This document shows positions 15,602-24,768 of a DNA stretch of 64,000 bases, in pieces (position 1 is the first letter of the stretch; the number at the start of each line of letters is the position of its first letter). The DNA comes from Methanoregula sp. (lineage in GTDB: Archaea; Halobacteriota; Methanomicrobia; Methanomicrobiales; Methanospirillaceae), in NCBI RefSeq assembly GCF_028712425.1, contig NZ_JAQTQD010000002.1, forward strand, positions 62,001 through 126,000, given 5' to 3'. A program made the position numbers and the translations under genes. The notes under the pieces are model-generated. The model ran no database searches. It worked only from the letters and a program-made list of their open reading frames with translations, and was not told the origin of the DNA.

Positions 15602-15738
15602 GATTCCAAAACGCAGGTGCGGTTCGCACCCGCTGTCTGTTGTGCTGCGTAACGCCGGCCAAAACGATGGCAGGGAATGTTATTCTATTGTACACCTTTT
15701 TTAGCCAAGATAACCTTTACTACATTACAGGAACTGCT

Positions 15739-17031
15739 ATGGCGATTGACTGGTACAAGGAATTCGTTGACCTGAAGTACGAACCGGCAAAGGATGACCT
15801 CGTCTGCCTCTTCTATTTCGAACCCGCGGCGGGTGTCAGCGGCAGGGAAGCCGCCGGCCGGATCGCATCAGAGAGTTCGACCGGCACGTGGACCACGCTC
15901 TTTTCCATGCCCCCAAGGATGAAAGCCCTGCAGGCGACCGCATTCGACATTGACGGAAATGTCGTGAAGATCGCGTATCCCATCGAGCTTTGGGAAGAAG
16001 GCAACGCAGTCCAGCTCATGAGCGGGATCGCGGGCAATATCTTCGGCATGAAAGCGGTGAGGAACCTGCGCCTTATTGATGTCTCACTTTCTCCCGCATA
16101 CCTGAAGCATTTCAAAGGGCCGCACTTTGGGAACGACGGCATCCGGAAGATGATGGGGATCAAAAAACGTCCCCTTACCGGCGCAGTGCCCAAGCCGAAG
16201 ATCGGGTTCTCGGCAAAGGAGCACGCCGACATCGGGTACGAGACCTGGATGGGCGGCTTCGATTTCGTGAAGGACGATGAGAACCTCACCTCCACCTCGT
16301 TCAACAAATTCGAGGACCGGGTGAAGTACATGACAAAGCTGCGCGACAAGGCCGAGAAGGAGACCGGTGAGAAGAAGTCTGCGTTCTTAAACATAACCGC
16401 CGATGTCGAAACCATGAAGAAGCGGGCCGATCTCCTTGCCGCGAGTGGCTGGAACTACTGTATGATCGATGTCGTTGTTGCCGGAACGGCTGCTGTCATG
16501 ACCATGCGGGACTACTGCTCGGACCTTGGCCTTGCAATCCATGCGCACCGGGCCATGCACGCGGCGTTCGACCGGAACCGGAAACACGGGATCAGCATGC
16601 AGTTCCTCGCCAAGATGATGCGGCTTATCGGTGTCTCGCAGATCCATACCGGCACCGCGGTCGGGAAGCTGACCGGGTCCCGGAAAGAGTCGCTTGCGCT
16701 TGCCAACCTGCTGCGTGAGAAGAAGACCGCGGCAGTCGAGGGGATTCTTCTTGAACAGGACTGGGGGAAGATCAAAACAGCATTCCCGGTCTCATCCGGC
16801 GGCCTGCACCCGGGCCTTGTGCCGGACGTGATGGACATCTACGGCACCGAGATGGTGCTGCTTGTTTCCGGTGGGATCCACGGCCACCCGAAGGGGACAA
16901 GGGCCGGCGCGAAGGCGACCATTCAGGCAATGGAAGCATGGCAGGACGGAGTATCTCTTGAAGAGAAGGCAAAGAAGGCAAATGAGCTCAAAGAGGCCCT
17001 TGGCAAGTGGGGCCACTATAAACCTGTCTGA
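15739..17031 (+). CDS. rbcL: Form III ribulose-1,5-bisphosphate carboxylase (large subunit)
   Basis: 430 residues, archaeal length. Near the N-terminus SSTGTWTT binds substrate phosphate. The active-site block GFDFVKDDEN holds the carbamylated lysine with its Asp/Glu metal ligands. HAHRAMHAAF, the loop-6 lysine in HTGTAVGKLTG, SSGGLHPG and VSGGIHGHPKG complete the site, so it should be catalytically competent. Form III enzymes fix CO2 onto ribulose bisphosphate made from nucleosides (AMP pathway) or, in some Methanomicrobiales, from phosphoribulokinase in the reductive hexulose-phosphate pathway. No phosphoribulokinase, AMP phosphorylase or R15P isomerase is in this window. The start at 15739 was chosen for its match to the family N-terminus; an AGGA lies about 8 bases upstream. 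T-runs follow the stop. Confidence 0.95.
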   Translation: MAIDWYKEFVDLKYEPAKDDLVCLFYFEPAAGVSGREAAGRIASESSTGTWTTLFSMPPRMKALQATAFDIDGNVVKIAYPIELWEEGNAVQLMSGIAGNIFGMKAVRNLRLIDVSLSPAYLKHFKGPHFGNDGIRKMMGIKKRPLTGAVPKPKIGFSAKEHADIGYETWMGGFDFVKDDENLTSTSFNKFEDRVKYMTKLRDKAEKETGEKKSAFLNITADVETMKKRADLLAASGWNYCMIDVVVAGTAAVMTMRDYCSDLGLAIHAHRAMHAAFDRNRKHGISMQFLAKMMRLIGVSQIHTGTAVGKLTGSRKESLALANLLREKKTAAVEGILLEQDWGKIKTAFPVSSGGLHPGLVPDVMDIYGTEMVLLVSGGIHGHPKGTRAGAKATIQAMEAWQDGVSLEEKAKKANELKEALGKWGHYKPV

Positions 17032-17149: not shown

Positions 17150-17629
17150 ATGCCAGAAAAAGGAAAAATTACCCTTATTGAGGTATCTCCCATGGATGTC
17201 CTGGGGACCGAGAAGACCGGGACCTATGCCCTTATCCCGGAGCTCCTGATGAAGGTATTCAGCTACATGATGGAACAGAAGATCTCCATCGCCGGCCCGC
17301 CCGTCTTCAACTGCCATGAATGCTCTCCGGAAGCGGTACAAGTCGCAAATGCAAACGGTACTGCCCGGGTTGAAGTTGCCTGGCCGGTGACAGGCCCTGC
17401 GTCCGGAAGCGGGGATATCCGGCGGTACACTCTGCCCGGAGGAAAGATGGTTCATGTCATACACAAGGGCCCCTATGATTCCTGCGAATCCACGTACCTT
17501 TCTGCATTCGCATGGATAGAACAAAGAGGACTGACGATCAGCGGCCCGATTCGCGAGATTTATCCCAATGATCCGCGGGAAGTCCCCCCGGAAGAGATCC
17601 TGACAGAGATCTACATTCCTGTTGCATAA
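17150..17629 (+). CDS. GyrI-like / AraC effector-binding domain protein
   Basis: 159 residues made up of one GyrI-like small-molecule-binding domain, without a DNA-binding domain. The family features are a basic start (ITLIEVSPMDVLG), a central ALIPELLMKVFSYM helix, VAWPV, the HKGPYDSCESTYLSAFAWIEQRG block, and the IREIYPNDPREVPPEEILTEIYIPV ending that supplies the pocket glutamate. Members bind hydrophobic or cationic compounds, and some hydrolyse them. It has its own unit after the RuBisCO terminator. The ligand is unknown. Confidence 0.85.
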   Translation: MPEKGKITLIEVSPMDVLGTEKTGTYALIPELLMKVFSYMMEQKISIAGPPVFNCHECSPEAVQVANANGTARVEVAWPVTGPASGSGDIRRYTLPGGKMVHVIHKGPYDSCESTYLSAFAWIEQRGLTISGPIREIYPNDPREVPPEEILTEIYIPVA

Positions 17630-18383: not shown

Positions 18384-18578
18384 ATGCCAGACATCGTAGC
18401 CAGCAAGAAGGTACCGGAAGGAGTTGTGGTCATGTGGGGAGAGGGCAGTTCGATTAAGTCCGAGAATTTCAATTACCAGGACCTGATTGACCAGAAAGTG
18501 AATGTCCTTGACCTGCTGGACCGTCCGATTGCGTACAAGATTGATCCCAAACTCCACAAGATCAGTCCCAAATACTGA
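18384..18578 (+). CDS. Small conserved-looking protein of 64 residues, function unknown
   Basis: 64 residues with an ATG at 18384. The composition is protein-like and charged: a VPEGVVVMWGEG start, a DLLDRPIAYKID middle and an HKISPKY end. It has no membrane helix and no cysteine. The phase and codon use fit the neighbours, and an AT-rich element (CAACCTTCATTATCCG) ends about 19 bases before the start, where an archaeal promoter would be expected for a leaderless message. I do not recognise the family. It sits alone between the divergent GNAT gene and the redox operon. Confidence 0.55.
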   Translation: MPDIVASKKVPEGVVVMWGEGSSIKSENFNYQDLIDQKVNVLDLLDRPIAYKIDPKLHKISPKY

Positions 18579-18649
18579 TCTCTCTTTTCCCGTTTCGGTA
18601 TTGTATGAAGCTCGCAGGTACTGTCACTTGCATCCGCTATCGGGCCAAA

Positions 18650-18680
18650 AAGATATAAGTGTATAAGCAAACACTTATAC
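18650..18680 (+). promoter_or_regulatory. Promoter and inverted-repeat operator of the redox operon
   Basis: A TATA box (AGATATAAG, 18651-18659) lies about 35 bases before the ATG. It is followed at once by a perfect inverted repeat, GTATAAG (18661-18667) / CTTATAC (18674-18680), which also contains the nested pair AAGTGT/ACACTT. The repeat covers the expected transcription start. An ArsR-type dimer bound here would block initiation, which fits autoregulation by the first gene of the operon (inference). Confidence 0.65.
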
Positions 18681-18689
18681 AGATATTCC

Positions 18690-19607
18690 ATGGAGCCCTG
18701 CAAAAAGTGTGCCGAGTGCAACAATCTCTGCGAGATTGTCCCGCAGATGGCCGGGACATTCAAAGCACTCGGGGACTTTACACGGCTCCAGATCATTTAC
18801 ATCCTATCAACGGACACGAGCGGGACGCTCGGTGTCAGCGAGCTTGCAGGCCGGCTGAAGATCTCCCAGCCCGCGGTCTCGCAGCACTTGAAGACCCTCA
18901 AAGCAGAGGGGCTTGTCGGATCGCGCCGTGACGGGTTCTATGTGTACTACACCATCAATCGCGACCGGATGATGGAATTGCGGGACCACTTCGAGCTGAT
19001 GTACGCAACCGTCATGAAACAGTGCAGCCGTGAGATGGTCAGAAAGGCAACACCCGGCCGGAGCGTCCGGGCATGTGTCATCTATTACTCATACTCCGGG
19101 ATTACACGGCATGTTGCCGAGGGAATCCGGAATGCGAGCGGCTGCGATCTTGTCGAGGTCCGGACACGGGCAGCCTACTCTTCCTTTACCGCGTACACCA
19201 AGGGGGTTCTCCGGTCCCGGAAGGGCTTGTGTGACCCGATCGAACCGGGCGAGATCGATGTCTCGGGCTATGATCTCCTGATCATCGGCACGCCCGTATG
19301 GGCATGGAAACCGTCACCCGCAATCAACGCGGCAGTGAAAGCCCTCCGTGGCTGCGAGGGAAAGATGGCCGTGGTCTTCACGACATGCAACAACCAGCCG
19401 GGAGAAGCCCTTCCCCTCCTGAGAAAAGCGCTGGAGGAGCGGGGTGTGACAGTTATGGCTGAGATCAGCCTTGACCATGATGACGCGAAGAACCCGGATG
19501 CCGGCGGGGAACTGCTCCGGCAGATCATTGATGCAAACCCGCTCAGGGGCATAGCTGACGGAGAACCAGGTGAAGGAACCAGGGAGAATGTGGACGTGAA
19601 AGTATGA
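18690..19607 (+). CDS. Fusion of four-cysteine motif, ArsR-type HTH regulator and flavodoxin domain
   Basis: 305 residues. Cysteines at 4, 7, 10 and 14 form CxxCxxCxxxC, the spacing of a [4Fe-4S] ferredoxin motif. An ArsR/SmtB-like winged helix follows (about 20-100), with FKALGDFTRLQIIYIL, recognition helix SQPAVSQHLKTLKAEGLV and the wing RRDGFYVYYTI. Residues about 125-285 are a flavodoxin fold with the FMN loop YYSYSGITRHVAEGI, GTPVWAWKPSPAI and the TTCNNQPGEAL loop. A DNA-binding domain joined to both a possible cluster and a flavin site is unusual; it could sense redox state and act as an electron carrier (inference). The last four bases overlap the next gene (ATGA), and an operator lies just upstream. 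Confidence 0.88.
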   Translation: MEPCKKCAECNNLCEIVPQMAGTFKALGDFTRLQIIYILSTDTSGTLGVSELAGRLKISQPAVSQHLKTLKAEGLVGSRRDGFYVYYTINRDRMMELRDHFELMYATVMKQCSREMVRKATPGRSVRACVIYYSYSGITRHVAEGIRNASGCDLVEVRTRAAYSSFTAYTKGVLRSRKGLCDPIEPGEIDVSGYDLLIIGTPVWAWKPSPAINAAVKALRGCEGKMAVVFTTCNNQPGEALPLLRKALEERGVTVMAEISLDHDDAKNPDAGGELLRQIIDANPLRGIADGEPGEGTRENVDVKV

Positions 19608-20089
19608 ATGTGAAAATTATTTGTGCATCGTATACGGGAACAACCTTTGGAATAGCCGAACAGATTCGGAACGCCTGCGGGGGTGAGATCATCGAGATCC
19701 GGTCACGGGATCTCCTGTCCCGGTTTGTTGCATTCATGGCCCGCCATTCACCCGGCATGACCGTGCGGGACAGCGGCACCCTGCCGGACAATATCGATCT
19801 CTCCGGGTCTGATCTTGTCGTGATCGGGACGCCCGTCTGGGGCGGAAAACCCGTCCCGGCAATCAGGAAAGCCCTTGCCGCGCTCACGGGATGCAGGGGG
19901 AAAAAAGCAGTGATCTTCGCTACCTGTTCCGGGGATCCCGGTACGACACTCCAGGTCATGGAAAAGGAGCTTTTAGCAAAAGAGATGATCGTTGCCGGGC
20001 AGTTCTCTCTCACGGAAAAGGAGATCAAGGACGGCACTCCCGTAGCGGCACTGATAGCAAAAGTACAGGAGACTCTGAGGCAGGGATGA
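19604..20089 (+). CDS. Flavodoxin-family protein
   Basis: 161 residues, one flavodoxin domain. The FMN phosphate loop is SYTGTTFGIAEQIRNA near residue 6. The aromatic loop region is GTPVWGGKPVPAIRKAL near residue 75, and FATCSGDPGTTLQVM follows. It is clearly related to the flavodoxin half of the preceding fusion protein, so the two probably arose by duplication. It should carry one or two electrons through FMN in the cytoplasm. It overlaps both neighbours by 4 bases (ATGA), which indicates translational coupling inside the operon. Confidence 0.88.
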   Translation: MNVKIICASYTGTTFGIAEQIRNACGGEIIEIRSRDLLSRFVAFMARHSPGMTVRDSGTLPDNIDLSGSDLVVIGTPVWGGKPVPAIRKALAALTGCRGKKAVIFATCSGDPGTTLQVMEKELLAKEMIVAGQFSLTEKEIKDGTPVAALIAKVQETLRQG

Positions 20090-20901
20090 AAACAATTCTC
20101 TATTACTTCACCGGCACCGGCAACTCGCTTGCCGCAGCAAAAAAGATCGCTCTGGCACTGGGAGAGACCGAGCTTGTACCGATTGTCTCGCTTCAGGATA
20201 CCTCAGGCAACATCGTACCCGCTGCTGAACGCATTGGTATTGTTGCCCCGGTCTATTTCTGCGGTCTGCCTCTCATGGTGGCGGAATTTGCAGGGCGCCT
20301 GGATCCTGCAGCGGCAGAATATCTCTTCTGTGTCATGACTCACGGAGGTGGCGGGGAGTCCGCGGCACTCCGGCAGCTTGACAGTATTATCCGTAAACGG
20401 AAGGGACGGGGGCTCGACGCGGGATTCGGGATTGCCATGCCCGGGAATTATATCCTGATGTACGAACCCCTGGCGGTTGAGAAACAGCGGGAGATCTTAC
20501 AAAAAGCGGACGGGGTAATCGGTGACATAGCGGGGGCTGTCGGATGGTGCGAGAAACGCACTCTTCCCTCATCCCTCATCGGCCGCGTGCTGTATTCCCT
20601 CGCGTATCCGTATTTCCGGTCTCATGTTCGTGACGGCGATAAAAAATTCACCGTAACGGAGAAGTGCACGGCCTGCGGGACCTGCGTTGCGATCTGCCCC
20701 TCGGACAATATCGAACTGGTCAATAACCGGCCAGTCTGGAAACACCAGTGCGAGCTCTGCTGCGGCTGCATCCATACCTGCCCGGTGCAGGCAATCCAGG
20801 CCGGGCCAAAGACGGAATCGTGGGGGCGGTACCGGAATCCGGATGTCACGGTTGCCGACCTGAAAGCCCAGCACGGTAAAGCGCCTGAAAAACAAATTTG
20901 A
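20086..20901 (+). CDS. EFR1-type flavodoxin/ferredoxin protein
   Basis: 271 residues. The N-terminal half is flavodoxin-like with the FMN loop YYFTGTGNSLAAAKKIA. The C-terminal part carries two [4Fe-4S] motifs, CTACGTCVAICP and CELCCGCIHTCP, near residues 195 and 225. This is the EFR1 family (ferredoxin with flavodoxin-like domain), which can split or join one- and two-electron steps. The ATG at 20086 overlaps the previous stop (ATGA); upstream starts would run into the flavodoxin gene in another frame. In the operon it is the natural link between soluble flavodoxins and the membrane iron-sulfur proteins that follow (inference). Confidence 0.9.
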   Translation: MKTILYYFTGTGNSLAAAKKIALALGETELVPIVSLQDTSGNIVPAAERIGIVAPVYFCGLPLMVAEFAGRLDPAAAEYLFCVMTHGGGGESAALRQLDSIIRKRKGRGLDAGFGIAMPGNYILMYEPLAVEKQREILQKADGVIGDIAGAVGWCEKRTLPSSLIGRVLYSLAYPYFRSHVRDGDKKFTVTEKCTACGTCVAICPSDNIELVNNRPVWKHQCELCCGCIHTCPVQAIQAGPKTESWGRYRNPDVTVADLKAQHGKAPEKQI

Positions 20902-20917
20902 TTCAAAGGAAATTACC

Positions 20918-21676
20918 ATGACAGAAAACACAGAAACCAAAAAAGCATCGTCACGCCAGAACATCCGGAAATGGATCCTGATCCTTTCGTTCATCCTGAT
21001 CCCGGTCACGATCTTCTACATCTCCCCCATCATCCCCATGATGGGCGCCGGAGAAGGCATAGCCTCGGGCAGCCTGCTCCTGTACATTACGCTGTTTATC
21101 CTCTCGCTTGTCGTGGCCCGGCTTTGGTGCGGGTGGCTCTGCCCAATGGGCGCATGGCAGGAGATCTGTTCGCCGGTCATAAAGGGAACTGTAAAGGAAG
21201 GCTGGCGCAACTGGCTCAAGTACGGCATCACCGCCATCTGGCTTGGTATGCTCGGGTTCACCTTTTTCCAGGCTGGCGGGATCCGCTCTGTGGACCCCTT
21301 CTATGGCACCGTGAACGGTATCTCGATCTCCTCGGTTCAGGTCCTGATGATCGTAGGAATGATCTTCCTCTTCATCTTCATCATCGCCTTCATCACCGGA
21401 AAACGCGGGACCTGCCACGTGTTCTGCCCGATCGCCGGGATCATGGTTGCAGGACGGAAGATCCGGAACCTGTTCCACTGGCCGGCGCTGGGTCTCTCAG
21501 CCGACTCCTCCCGCTGTATCGACTGCCGGAAGTGTTCGAAGGAATGTCCCATGGGCCTTGACGTGAACGGAATGGTCCGGAAGGATGAGATGGAAAACGC
21601 CGACTGCATCCTCTGTGCCAGTTGTGCCGATGCCTGCCCGAAGGGTGCAATCACGTACGGCATAGTGCGCAGGTGA
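20918..21676 (+). CDS. NapH-like membrane [4Fe-4S] protein (copy 1)
   Basis: 252 residues. About four membrane helices (near 18-40, 50-70, 100-120 and 140-162) are followed by two ferredoxin motifs, CIDCRKCSKECP and CILCASCADACP. The NapH/NosR-type elements CGWLCPMGAWQEI after helix 2 and CHVFCP after helix 4 are present. Such proteins pass electrons between the quinone or membrane side and a partner reductase, with the clusters on the cytoplasmic side. It lies 16 bases after the EFR1 gene. Its close paralogue follows directly, so this is a tandem duplication. Confidence 0.9.
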   Translation: MTENTETKKASSRQNIRKWILILSFILIPVTIFYISPIIPMMGAGEGIASGSLLLYITLFILSLVVARLWCGWLCPMGAWQEICSPVIKGTVKEGWRNWLKYGITAIWLGMLGFTFFQAGGIRSVDPFYGTVNGISISSVQVLMIVGMIFLFIFIIAFITGKRGTCHVFCPIAGIMVAGRKIRNLFHWPALGLSADSSRCIDCRKCSKECPMGLDVNGMVRKDEMENADCILCASCADACPKGAITYGIVRR

Positions 21677-21720
21677 AAAAAGGGTATGGCCCTGTGCCGG
21701 ATGCAGACGAGGGAAAGAGA

Positions 21721-22503
21721 ATGAAAAGCCCGTTGGCAGGGAGGAGGATTCTGGGATCCCCGCGGCAGCGGGTGCGCCTTGCACTCATCATCCTCTCGTT
21801 CATCCTTTACCCCATCACCTTTGCCTACCTCTCGTGCCCGATCATCACCGAGGCGGCAGGACTGGGGATCGTGGCGGGCGGCCTCGTTATATTCATCCTG
21901 CTTTTCCTGAGCTCGCTCGTTGTTGCACGGCTCTGGTGCGGGTGGCTCTGCCCCTCGGGTGGCCTGCAGGAGTTGATGCGGTCTCTCTCTGATCCGCGTA
22001 TCCGGACAACAAGACTGGACTGGCTGAAGTATCTCGTTTTTCTTGGGATCTTCGGCAGCATTGGGTATGCGATCTGGTCGGCCGGCGGGCTTTCCAGCAT
22101 CGACCTCTTCTACCGGACGGAGAACGGAATTTCCCTTCTTGCAGCAGGTGGGATTGCTGCATTTCTCGGGCCGGTGATTATGATTCTCGCATTCACGCTC
22201 ATCTTCGGGAGACGCGGATTCTGCCACACGTTCTGCCCGTTCGCCCCGATGCTTATTCTCGGCAGGAAAATCCGGAACCTGTTCCGCTGGCCGGCGCTGG
22301 GCCTCTCCGCCGATTCCGGTCATTGCATCGATTGCGGGGTATGTTCAGCGGGATGCCCGATGAGCCTTGATGTGAATGGCATGGTCAGGAAGGATGAGAT
22401 GGAGCAAACGGAATGTATCCTCTGCGGTGAATGTGCGGACACCTGCCCGAAGGGTGTCATCTCGTACGTGTGGAAAACAAAGGAAAAGCGGGAGGTTTCG
22501 TGA
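21721..22503 (+). CDS. NapH-like membrane [4Fe-4S] protein (copy 2)
   Basis: 260 residues, same layout as copy 1: four helices, CGWLCPSGGLQEL, CHTFCPFAPM, then CIDCGVCSAGCP and CILCGECADTCP. Stretches such as NGMVRKDEME and PALGLSADS are shared almost unchanged with copy 1, so the duplication is clear. The start at 21721 follows a GGGAAAGAGA ribosome site; frames opening earlier would overlap copy 1. The stop overlaps the next start (TGATG). Two paralogues kept side by side suggest a heterodimer or two serial electron carriers (inference). Confidence 0.9.
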   Translation: MKSPLAGRRILGSPRQRVRLALIILSFILYPITFAYLSCPIITEAAGLGIVAGGLVIFILLFLSSLVVARLWCGWLCPSGGLQELMRSLSDPRIRTTRLDWLKYLVFLGIFGSIGYAIWSAGGLSSIDLFYRTENGISLLAAGGIAAFLGPVIMILAFTLIFGRRGFCHTFCPFAPMLILGRKIRNLFRWPALGLSADSGHCIDCGVCSAGCPMSLDVNGMVRKDEMEQTECILCGECADTCPKGVISYVWKTKEKREVS

Positions 22504-23123
22504 TGGACGGAATCAGGAGCGGGAAGAAGATCCTTGATGTCGTTTCGGACCGGATCATCAGCATCACATCGGGGCGTACCGTGCTCGTGGCGTTTGCCGG
22601 GATCCTGGTCACGGGATTCCTTGTCAACGGTCGTCCCTTTGGTATTGCGGAACTTAAATCGATCACCGGGGGGGTCGGCATCCTTGACATGGAAGTGTTC
22701 TACACGCCGGAACAGGCCTACGCGTTCCTCGCGGCCATGGGAGAAGCCGGCCGGTCGTTCGAGCTGACCCGGATCATCCCGCTCGACCATCTCGTCCCGC
22801 TCTTCTACGCGCTCTTCCTCTCGACGCTCATCACGTGGATCCTGCACCGGTGGCTCCCAGCGGAAAGCGGCTGGCACCGGCTCAATGTCGTTCCCGTCAT
22901 CGGGGCACTCTTCGATTACCTGGAAAACCTCGGGATCATCGCGATGCTCCTTGCATACCCGATGGAGATGTACAGTGTTGCGCAGATTACCATGGCGGCC
23001 ACGCTCCTCAAGTTCGGGTTTTCCGTGCTTGCCGGTATAATCCTGCTCGTAGCATTTGCAGGATGGATGGTCACGGCGCTGCGGAAAATTTCCGATGCGT
23101 TCGGAGTATCTCATGCAAAATGA
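22503..23123 (+). CDS. Four-helix membrane protein of the redox operon, family not recognised
   Basis: 206 residues. Four hydrophobic segments lie near residues 24-42, 97-120, 128-152 and 165-195. Between the first two is a hydrophilic, probably external, loop of about 50 residues (GGVGILDMEVFYTPEQAY). There are no cysteine clusters and no haem motifs, so it is unlikely to carry electrons itself. Arginine and histidine in the helix 2-3 loop (LHRWLPAESGWHR) are the only conspicuous polar groups. It starts inside the stop of the second NapH-like gene and overlaps the radical SAM gene by 11 bases, so it is made with them; it could anchor the enzyme or present a membrane substrate (inference). 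Confidence 0.8.
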   Translation: MDGIRSGKKILDVVSDRIISITSGRTVLVAFAGILVTGFLVNGRPFGIAELKSITGGVGILDMEVFYTPEQAYAFLAAMGEAGRSFELTRIIPLDHLVPLFYALFLSTLITWILHRWLPAESGWHRLNVVPVIGALFDYLENLGIIAMLLAYPMEMYSVAQITMAATLLKFGFSVLAGIILLVAFAGWMVTALRKISDAFGVSHAK

Positions 23124-24195
23124 TAACGCCCGGGAAAAATTCGACTCGGTGATCAGCGAGACTCTCGCACAGGCAGTCCGGATCATTGCCGGTAACCCAA
23201 CTCTTGTTATCCCCGGATCGGTCATCCTCCACAACCAGCGGAAGGCTGCCTCCGTGCGGCTGAAGCACGAGCGGGAGGGATTGATCGTCCCACCCATCAT
23301 CATCGCAAGCATCACCTCGCGCTGCAACCTTGCCTGCACCGGCTGTTACATGAGAGGACGGGAGGACAAACAGGCTGGTGAGATGAGCCCGGACACCCTT
23401 GCATCACTGGTCAGCCAGTCAGAGGAACTGGGGGTCTCGGTTATTGTCATTGCCGGCGGCGAACCACTCGTCCGGCGGGATGAGATCCTCTCGATCGCAC
23501 AGGCCCATCCCGCGATCCTCTTTCCGGTCTTTACGAACGGGCTCCTGATCGATGAGGCGCTGGCTGAGGCAATGGCAGCATGCCGGAATATTGTCCCGGT
23601 TATCAGTTTCGAAGGATTCCGCAAGGACACGGACTCGCGGAGGGGCGACGGGGTCTATGAACGGCTCCTCTCCACCTGCGCATTGCTGAAAAGCCGGAAT
23701 ATCTTTTTCGGCTGTTCGGTCACGACCACACGGGAAAATTTCTCCCGGGTCACAAACGAAGCGTTCATCCGCGAGATGACCCGTGCCGGCGCCCGGGTCT
23801 TTACATACGTGGAGTACGTACCCATGGCGCCCGGCACAGAAAACCTCGTCCTCACCCGTGAACAAAAGAAGGTCCTTCAGATCGTTCTCGCGGACTTCAA
23901 CCGGAAATTTCCGGCGCTCTTCATTGGTTTTCCTGGGGATGAGGATGAGTATGGCGGGTGCCTTGCGGCCGGGCGGGGATTTGTGCATGTCGGGCCGTCG
24001 GGGAATCTCGAGCCCTGCCCGGCTGCGCCGTACTCGGATGCGAACCTTGCAGAGGTCCCATTACGGGAAGCGCTCCGGTCCCGGCTGCTCTCACGGATCC
24101 GTAACGAACACGGGCTGCTTACGGAAACGACCGGTGGTTGTGCGCTCCGGGCGAACCGGGTGTGGGTGGAGACGATGATTGCGTTGGATAAATGA
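23113..24195 (+). CDS. Radical SAM enzyme, last gene of the redox operon
   Basis: 360 residues. The cluster motif is CNLACTGCYMRG (CxxxCxxC) near residue 75, and the SAM-binding GGEP lies near residue 117. The barrel continues to about 280. The C-terminal part has cysteines in GGCLAAGRG, EPCPAAPYSD and TGGCALR, which resemble a reduced SPASM-like auxiliary cluster region. The N-terminal 60 residues (ETLAQAVRIIAGNPTLVI) are an extra helical part. Related proteins include MoaA/PqqE-type and B12-independent radical SAM enzymes; the substrate is unknown. The ATG at 23113 overlaps the membrane protein gene by 11 bases. The flavodoxin and ferredoxin genes before it could supply the low-potential electrons it needs (inference). 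Confidence 0.9.
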   Translation: MQNDNAREKFDSVISETLAQAVRIIAGNPTLVIPGSVILHNQRKAASVRLKHEREGLIVPPIIIASITSRCNLACTGCYMRGREDKQAGEMSPDTLASLVSQSEELGVSVIVIAGGEPLVRRDEILSIAQAHPAILFPVFTNGLLIDEALAEAMAACRNIVPVISFEGFRKDTDSRRGDGVYERLLSTCALLKSRNIFFGCSVTTTRENFSRVTNEAFIREMTRAGARVFTYVEYVPMAPGTENLVLTREQKKVLQIVLADFNRKFPALFIGFPGDEDEYGGCLAAGRGFVHVGPSGNLEPCPAAPYSDANLAEVPLREALRSRLLSRIRNEHGLLTETTGGCALRANRVWVETMIALDK

Positions 24196-24270: not shown

Positions 24271-24768
24271 ATGAGAAAAACTATTCTTTCTTTCGCCATT
24301 GCATCCCTCCTCATCACGTTCCTTTTCTGTGCAGGATGTACGACAACTCCCGTCTCACCTCCGAATTCGCCGGCTGAAATTACCCCGTCACCGGACGTGA
24401 AGTATCCAGACATCACCGGCACCTGGAAATCCGAAAACGAGGCCGGGTGGAACCTGAACACGACCATCCAGGATGTCGCGGTCGGCGAGAATACATGGGT
24501 GTTTGCTTCGCAGGAAGGTCCCGTTGTCAAAGGCTTCAAACTCTTCCGGCAGCCCTATGGCCCTGATGTAAACCAGACCGTTCTCGGCATTGTTGATCCG
24601 GATGGGAAATCCCTCACGATCATCGACCAGCCGGGTGGCTGGGCAAAGGGCACGCTGATTGATCCGGATACGATGTCTATTGTGCTGACGTATTCCAGCG
24701 GGAAGGACACCGGTGGAAACTCCTTTGCGCTGATCATGATGCTGCACCGGGTAAAGGGCACGGTCTGA
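24271..24768 (+). CDS. Small extracytoplasmic lipoprotein, function unknown
   Basis: 165 residues. The signal sequence (RKTILSFAIASLLITFLF) ends in the lipobox CAGC near residue 24, so the mature protein should be lipid-anchored outside the cell. A Ser/Pro/Thr-rich linker (about 25-45) leads to a beta-rich domain starting at DITGTWKSENEAGW, of a kind seen repeatedly in methanogen lipoproteins of unknown role. No catalytic motif is visible. It is a single-gene unit with its own TATA box. Confidence 0.75.
   Translation: MRKTILSFAIASLLITFLFCAGCTTTPVSPPNSPAEITPSPDVKYPDITGTWKSENEAGWNLNTTIQDVAVGENTWVFASQEGPVVKGFKLFRQPYGPDVNQTVLGIVDPDGKSLTIIDQPGGWAKGTLIDPDTMSIVLTYSSGKDTGGNSFALIMMLHRVKGTV

Follow-up and report, generated by a model that had tools for sequence, protein, structure and literature searches.

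The 64,000-nucleotide stretch of DNA analyzed here (the window; contig NZ_JAQTQD010000002.1), from the methane-producing archaeon Methanoregula sp., raises the question of why a repressor fused to a flavodoxin, further redox carriers, membrane iron-sulfur (Fe-S) proteins, and a radical S-adenosylmethionine (SAM) enzyme should be encoded together. The seven genes concerned lie on the plus strand, at positions 18690 to 24195 of the window, and encode, in order, an ArsR-type winged-helix repressor-flavodoxin fusion (ArsR-Fld), a stand-alone flavodoxin-like protein, an EFR1-family protein, two NapH-like membrane Fe-S proteins (a and b), a four-helix membrane protein (Mem4), and the radical SAM enzyme (rSAM). 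We favor a reading, to which we give about an even chance, in which this is an autorepressed, redox-responsive cassette: its carriers would supply electrons to the rSAM at the end of the operon, and the NapH-like proteins and Mem4 would form a membrane module that is optional. The original prediction had described a self-regulated seven-gene operon. When open reading frames (ORFs) and junctions were checked against the sequence, the genes, their order, and every junction were present as claimed (an ATGA overlap twice, then a 16-bp gap, a 44-bp gap, TGATG, and an 11-bp overlap), and domain searches agreed. Since the cassette is conserved in other genomes, chance adjacency of the seven genes is excluded.

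Is the rSAM the client of the carriers? We compared the anatomy of 23 loci that have both the regulator and the rSAM. In all 23, ArsR-Fld comes first, followed by at least one soluble carrier and then by the rSAM. The carrier between them is EFR1 in 22 loci and a flavin mononucleotide (FMN)-reductase-like protein in the other (L120); minimal cassettes consist of ArsR-Fld, EFR1, and rSAM (L042 and L073) or of ArsR-Fld, the FMN-reductase-like protein, and rSAM (L120). Outside the cassette, independent pairings of the rSAM with a flavodoxin-fold protein are found in Bacteroidales (L138, L140, L145, and L146) and also in L062 and L046; in all, 7 of 75 non-cassette loci have a flavodoxin or FMN-reductase-like gene near the rSAM. 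Given the constant order and these pairings, we propose that flavodoxin (FMN) and EFR1 (FMN/4Fe-4S) hand low-potential electrons to the operon-terminal rSAM. Flavodoxin can activate radical SAM enzymes in vitro, and both the natural donor and electron delivery in the cell have been called enigmatic (PMC10470005). The cassette is a good place to test this, pairing one rSAM with one or several flavin or Fe-S carriers and with a regulator that has a flavodoxin domain of its own, and offering natural variants such as the swap of EFR1 for an FMN-reductase-like protein and the minimal three-gene form. The genus Methanoregula includes cultured isolates.

The rest of the cassette is less constant. Extra flavodoxins, NapH-like proteins, and Mem4 vary between cassettes: NapH-like genes are present in 13 of the 23, Mem4 in 9, always directly 5′ of the rSAM, and another flavodoxin follows the rSAM in several; in L041, the rSAM is followed by genes for one DUF4332 protein and one NapH-like protein. 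Neither NapH nor Mem4 is found in L037, L038, L042, L068, L073, L084, L085, and L120. This variable anatomy suggests that two modules have been combined, one of regulator, carriers, and rSAM and the other of NapH-like proteins and Mem4. Scattering of the genes in related genomes had been named beforehand as an outcome that would refute the operon; we found the core together but the periphery varying. The dedicated electron supply proposed at the same time gains from the association of carrier and rSAM, with a carrier besides the regulator in all 23 cassettes, but finds no support for its supposed membrane link through the NapH-like proteins, which are missing from 10 of the 23 and occur, with Mem4, in Methanoculleus cassettes without an rSAM.

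How the cassette may be switched is suggested by the DNA at its head. The regulator gene (18690 to 19607, plus strand; 305 amino acids [aa]) is preceded by a palindrome, GTATAAG-CAAACA-CTTATAC (18661 to 18680, assigned to neither strand), 9 bp 5′ of the start codon, and by a putative archaeal promoter element resembling a B recognition element and TATA box (ccaaaaag-atataagt; 18645 to 18660, plus strand). Across 32 non-redundant loci, the operator GTATAAG-N6-CTTATAC lies directly 3′ of a TATA-like stretch and 5 to 9 bp 5′ of nearly all start codons. All 14 palindrome bases are kept in 19 of the 32; mean pairwise identity is 84% in the operator versus 26% in DNA 26 to 45 bp upstream, and the TATA-like stretch just 5′ of the palindrome is partly conserved. 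The exact operator sequence occurs once in the 2.67-Mb genome, at the cassette, as expected for a dedicated autorepressor; the single site led us to reject a genome-wide regulon. This conserved palindrome at the regulator's own promoter, an ArsR/SmtB-type trait, is the predicted binding site of ArsR-Fld and backs the earlier claim of self-regulation.

We propose autorepression because the operator is far better conserved than its flanks, lies where a bound protein would prevent initiation, and has no second exact copy in the genome: ArsR-Fld would bind the palindrome, which separates the TATA box from the start codon, and turn its own operon off. Release would follow when the cysteines of ArsR-Fld and/or its flavodoxin domain sense an oxidant, a metal, or an altered redox state of FMN, and we imagine that redox state is the releasing signal. 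C112 is invariant in the 32 aligned regulators, and the flavodoxin half (Flavodoxin_4, 7e-9) retains an FMN phosphate-loop-like motif, YSxSGxT. The palindromic switch is new, and the ArsR-flavodoxin fusion may be a previously undescribed regulator.

The helix-turn-helix half of ArsR-Fld (HTH_5, 7e-13) exceeds the ArsR/SmtB metalloregulator model NF033788 (HTH_metalloreg; 80.6 versus 55 bits) and follows a CxxCxxCxxxC N-terminus whose cysteines, C4, C7, C10, and C14, are present in most of the 32 regulators. Flavodoxins, moreover, are classic substitutes at low iron. One can therefore envision a response to iron limitation or metal stress, in which flavodoxins replace ferredoxin or ArsR-Fld senses a metal. 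We judge this unlikely. The N-terminal cysteines are missing or incomplete in the regulators of L067, L073, L084, and L085; the cassette contains no metal transporter or resistance gene; and its wealth of 4Fe-4S clusters (EFR1, both NapH-like proteins, and rSAM) would be a poor choice at iron shortage. ArsR-Fld is far below every cut-off of the metal- and sulfur-sensing subfamilies CmtR, BigR, and TsoR.

What the rSAM (23113 to 24195, plus strand; 360 aa) might act on is the next question. It has a helical N-terminal part and a twitch-like C terminus, scores above the PF04055 cut-off (61.8 versus 29.5 bits), and carries the CxxxCxxC motif as C71, C75, and C78. These cysteines, together with E117, N142, C283, C302, and C343, are invariant in 102 of 102 aligned homologues. 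Proteins about 40 to 49% identical are found in Bacillota, Bacteroidales, Spirochaetales, WOR-3, Cloacimonadota, Chloroflexi, and others. No curated NCBIfam rSAM subfamily (NirJ, AhbD, SkfB, PqqE, mycofactocin, MoaA, and others) reaches its cut-off, the best score being 72 bits for NirJ (cut-off, 515), and seven bacterial and archaeal homologues likewise fall below all of them. Judged by sequence, the rSAM is a member of an unnamed family spread over many anaerobic phyla, so that a function established for one member would help to annotate a large number of genomes. Matches to defense systems (PADLOC viperin and Csa3) were rejected, the likeness being at superfamily level only.

Like SPASM/twitch enzymes (SkfB, SuiB, anSME, and MoaA), the rSAM has the CxxxCxxC core and an extended C terminus that bears cysteines, but its invariant extra cysteines number three rather than four or seven. 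In the AlphaFold2 model (predicted local distance difference test score [pLDDT], 80), C283 precedes and C302 follows a predicted hairpin, and C343 follows a helix; model confidence is low at residues 277 to 288. The twitch domains of MoaA and SkfB hold an auxiliary cluster with an open site, at which MoaA holds GTP (PMC6231123). The three cysteines in our model resemble this arrangement, and we predict an auxiliary Fe-S cluster; the rSAM would cleave SAM reductively with its substrate held near that cluster. The twitch-like C terminus with its three cysteines is the sole clue to the substrate, a structural one taken from the model.

In the PDB, the rSAM matches SkfB, SuiB, and anSME best, whether compared by sequence or by fold, and so it could be a SPASM/twitch maturase of peptides or proteins, like SkfB or SuiB, with the cassette making a modified peptide. 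This seems very unlikely to us, as the TM-scores are low, at about 0.6, all curated maturase models stay below their cut-offs, and junction gaps of 44 bp or less leave no space for a precursor gene within the operon. A small ORF just upstream (18387 to 18578) was rejected as a precursor peptide, since its presence in genomes (36 of 61) does not depend on that of the cassette.

A hint of function comes from bacterial relatives, for which neighbor statistics were drawn from 80 loci plus loci from further searches. Counting same-strand genes within 1.2 kb of the rSAM in 75 non-cassette loci, we found TetR regulators 9 times, OhrR-like MarR regulators 4 times, flavodoxins 5 times, and FMN-reductase-like proteins twice; the same families were rarer farther away (6 matches in about 0.97 Mb), a contrast biased upward because these loci had supplied part of the seeds for the profiles, which inflates the near counts. 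L045, L046, L063, and L211 were not seeds of the TetR profile. In two loci, L090 and L101, a superoxide reductase and a flavin reductase-rubredoxin lie near the rSAM homologue. Elsewhere (L137, L138, L140, L142, L145, and L146; Bacteroidales and one Oscillospiraceae), the homologue sits among genes for an OhrR-like MarR regulator, glutathione peroxidase, flavodoxin, and ferritin, although not every one of these is in each locus. We regard these six as candidate peroxide-stress loci in their own right.

The resemblance to OhrR peroxide-stress regulons has limits. The rSAM homologues of Bacteroidales and of one Clostridia genome do adjoin OhrR-like MarR and glutathione peroxidase genes, but the MarR neighbors score 181.6, 140.5, and 131.6 bits against an OhrR cut-off of 200, and the archaeal cassette, which has ArsR-Fld as its regulator, lacks a peroxidase gene. 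Still, the TetR or OhrR-like, flavodoxin, glutathione peroxidase, and superoxide reductase neighbors hint at a role in redox stress. In a bolder version of our reading, which we hold tentatively and think rather improbable, the cassette would be an inducible, dedicated electron supply for a new family of rSAM enzymes with three extra cysteines; ArsR-Fld would read the redox state of the very carriers it controls, and the enzyme would repair or modify a molecule damaged by redox stress. A paper on a Bacteroidetes iron stimulon was considered as a mention of the cassette rSAM and rejected, since its radical SAM protein is HydE. The gene directly 3′ of the rSAM homologue in two other loci (L087:2146-2472 and L099:9086-9403) resembles, on reading its sequence, an alkylguanine transferase-like protein (MGMT/ATL).

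Several observations weigh against the carriers serving chiefly the rSAM in a redox response. Most of the non-cassette loci, 68 of 75, have no linked flavodoxin, which implies that the family needs no dedicated donor. The stress link comes from a few bacterial loci, the neighbor contrast carries the seeding bias noted above, and some regulators, the four named above, have missing or incomplete N-terminal cysteines. The regulator, in turn, seems to have other clients. Among 150 Methanomicrobiales genomes, which are related to each other so that counts are not independent events, ArsR-Fld (at full length) was found in 20, a closely related rSAM (E < 1e-90) in 18, and Mem4 in 14. ArsR-Fld and rSAM occur together in 12 genomes, in the same cassette in 11 and on different contigs in G075; 8 of the 20 ArsR-Fld genomes have no closely related rSAM, and one further genome carries it outside the cassette. 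Cassettes with both occur in Methanoregula, Methanoculleus, Methanospirillum, and further genera, and among 295 sampled genomes of the phylum, full-length ArsR-Fld matches were confined to Methanomicrobiales.

The eight genomes with ArsR-Fld but without a closely related rSAM, and Methanoculleus cassettes L053 to L059, in which EFR1, NapH-like proteins, and Mem4 are kept without an rSAM, would fit a different order of importance. There, a membrane electron-transfer or detoxification system of EFR1, NapH-like proteins, and Mem4 under ArsR-Fld would be primary, and the rSAM an accessory client gained and lost by lineage. In bacteria, NapH-like proteins are modular electron conduits (PMC8238504). 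Yet in cassettes with the rSAM, it is the membrane module that varies more, being absent altogether from the eight listed above. Methanomicrobiales are not known to have quinones or methanophenazine, which leaves the NapH donor in doubt. We consider this main rival possible but improbable, and return to our favored reading, in which the NapH-like proteins and Mem4, neither fixed in the cassette nor confined to cassettes with the rSAM, look like an optional second module able to work without it. The L053 to L059 cassettes always lie 3′ of a sodium:solute symporter-like gene, some with a DUF4332 helix-hairpin-helix protein.

NapH-like protein a (20918 to 21676, plus strand; 252 aa) has Fer4_5 and Fer4 domains, and b (21721 to 22503, plus strand; 260 aa) matches Fer4_5 at 6e-15; in relatives, the two are about 45 to 51% identical to each other. 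Like the NapH/MauN ferredoxins, both have membrane helices, a pair of CxxxCP motifs, and a pair of 4Fe-4S motifs near the C terminus, but they score 59.1 and 58.5 bits with TIGR02163 (cut-off, 213) and 58.4 and 56.7 bits with NF007013 (cut-off, 234). They also have no FMN-binding domain, and the cassette has no nitrate reductase; none of its seven genes encodes a periplasmic reductase of the kind that NapH serves by oxidizing quinol. NapH homologues are described as sporadic and of unknown role in anaerobic methanotrophic (ANME) archaea (PMC9012536).

Mem4 (22503 to 23123, plus strand; 206 aa) found no family in Pfam, NCBIfam, or PHROG searches, and its AlphaFold2 model (pLDDT, 89.7) found no PDB fold with an E value below 0.3; a match to poxvirus P21 (E = 0.03) was dismissed as noise. 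Residues R84, D95, D138, Y139, E141, N142, and K170 are invariant. As charged residues among these sit in membrane helices, the sequence suggests that Mem4 is not simply an inert anchor but may be an enzyme or a path for ions. Roseobacter homologues retain R84, D95, DYxEN, and K170 and adjoin Crp/Fnr regulators; on two roseobacter plasmids (L209:6004-6549 and L210:5905-6453), the gene is divergent from that of a Crp/Fnr-type regulator.

The soluble carriers differ in how well they can be placed. The stand-alone flavodoxin-like protein (19604 to 20089, plus strand; 161 aa) has only weak family matches, with its flavodoxin domain below every Pfam cut-off, and is homologous to the flavodoxin half of ArsR-Fld (about 35 to 48% identity in relatives); most rSAM-bearing cassettes have such a protein at this position. 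The extra flavodoxins weakly resemble BilS, the flavodoxin of the BilQ/BilS bilirubin-reduction operon (E of about 4e-4), but score 20 bits against a cut-off of 155, and the cassette has no bilirubin reductase. Gene 3 (20086 to 20901, plus strand; 271 aa) encodes a clear, full-length EFR1 member (NF038196; 235 versus 75 bits) with a flavodoxin domain and two 4Fe-4S motifs. We know of no function for this family. A literature search found no description of EFR1 between an ArsR-flavodoxin regulator and an rSAM, nor did it turn up papers that treat EFR1 together with radical SAM, or Methanoregula together with flavodoxin.

On the 3′ side of the operon, after a 75-bp gap, a 165-residue lipoprotein-like gene (24271 to 24768) is probably a separate unit; L033 has it in the same place. 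On the 5′ side are a RuBisCO large-subunit-like gene (15640 to 17031; named by reading its sequence), a gene for a GyrI-like protein (17150 to 17629), and the 64-residue ORF considered above, an order conserved before the cassette in several Methanoregula genomes. In L081, the RuBisCO gene lies 111 bp 5′ of the rSAM, with no cassette between them.

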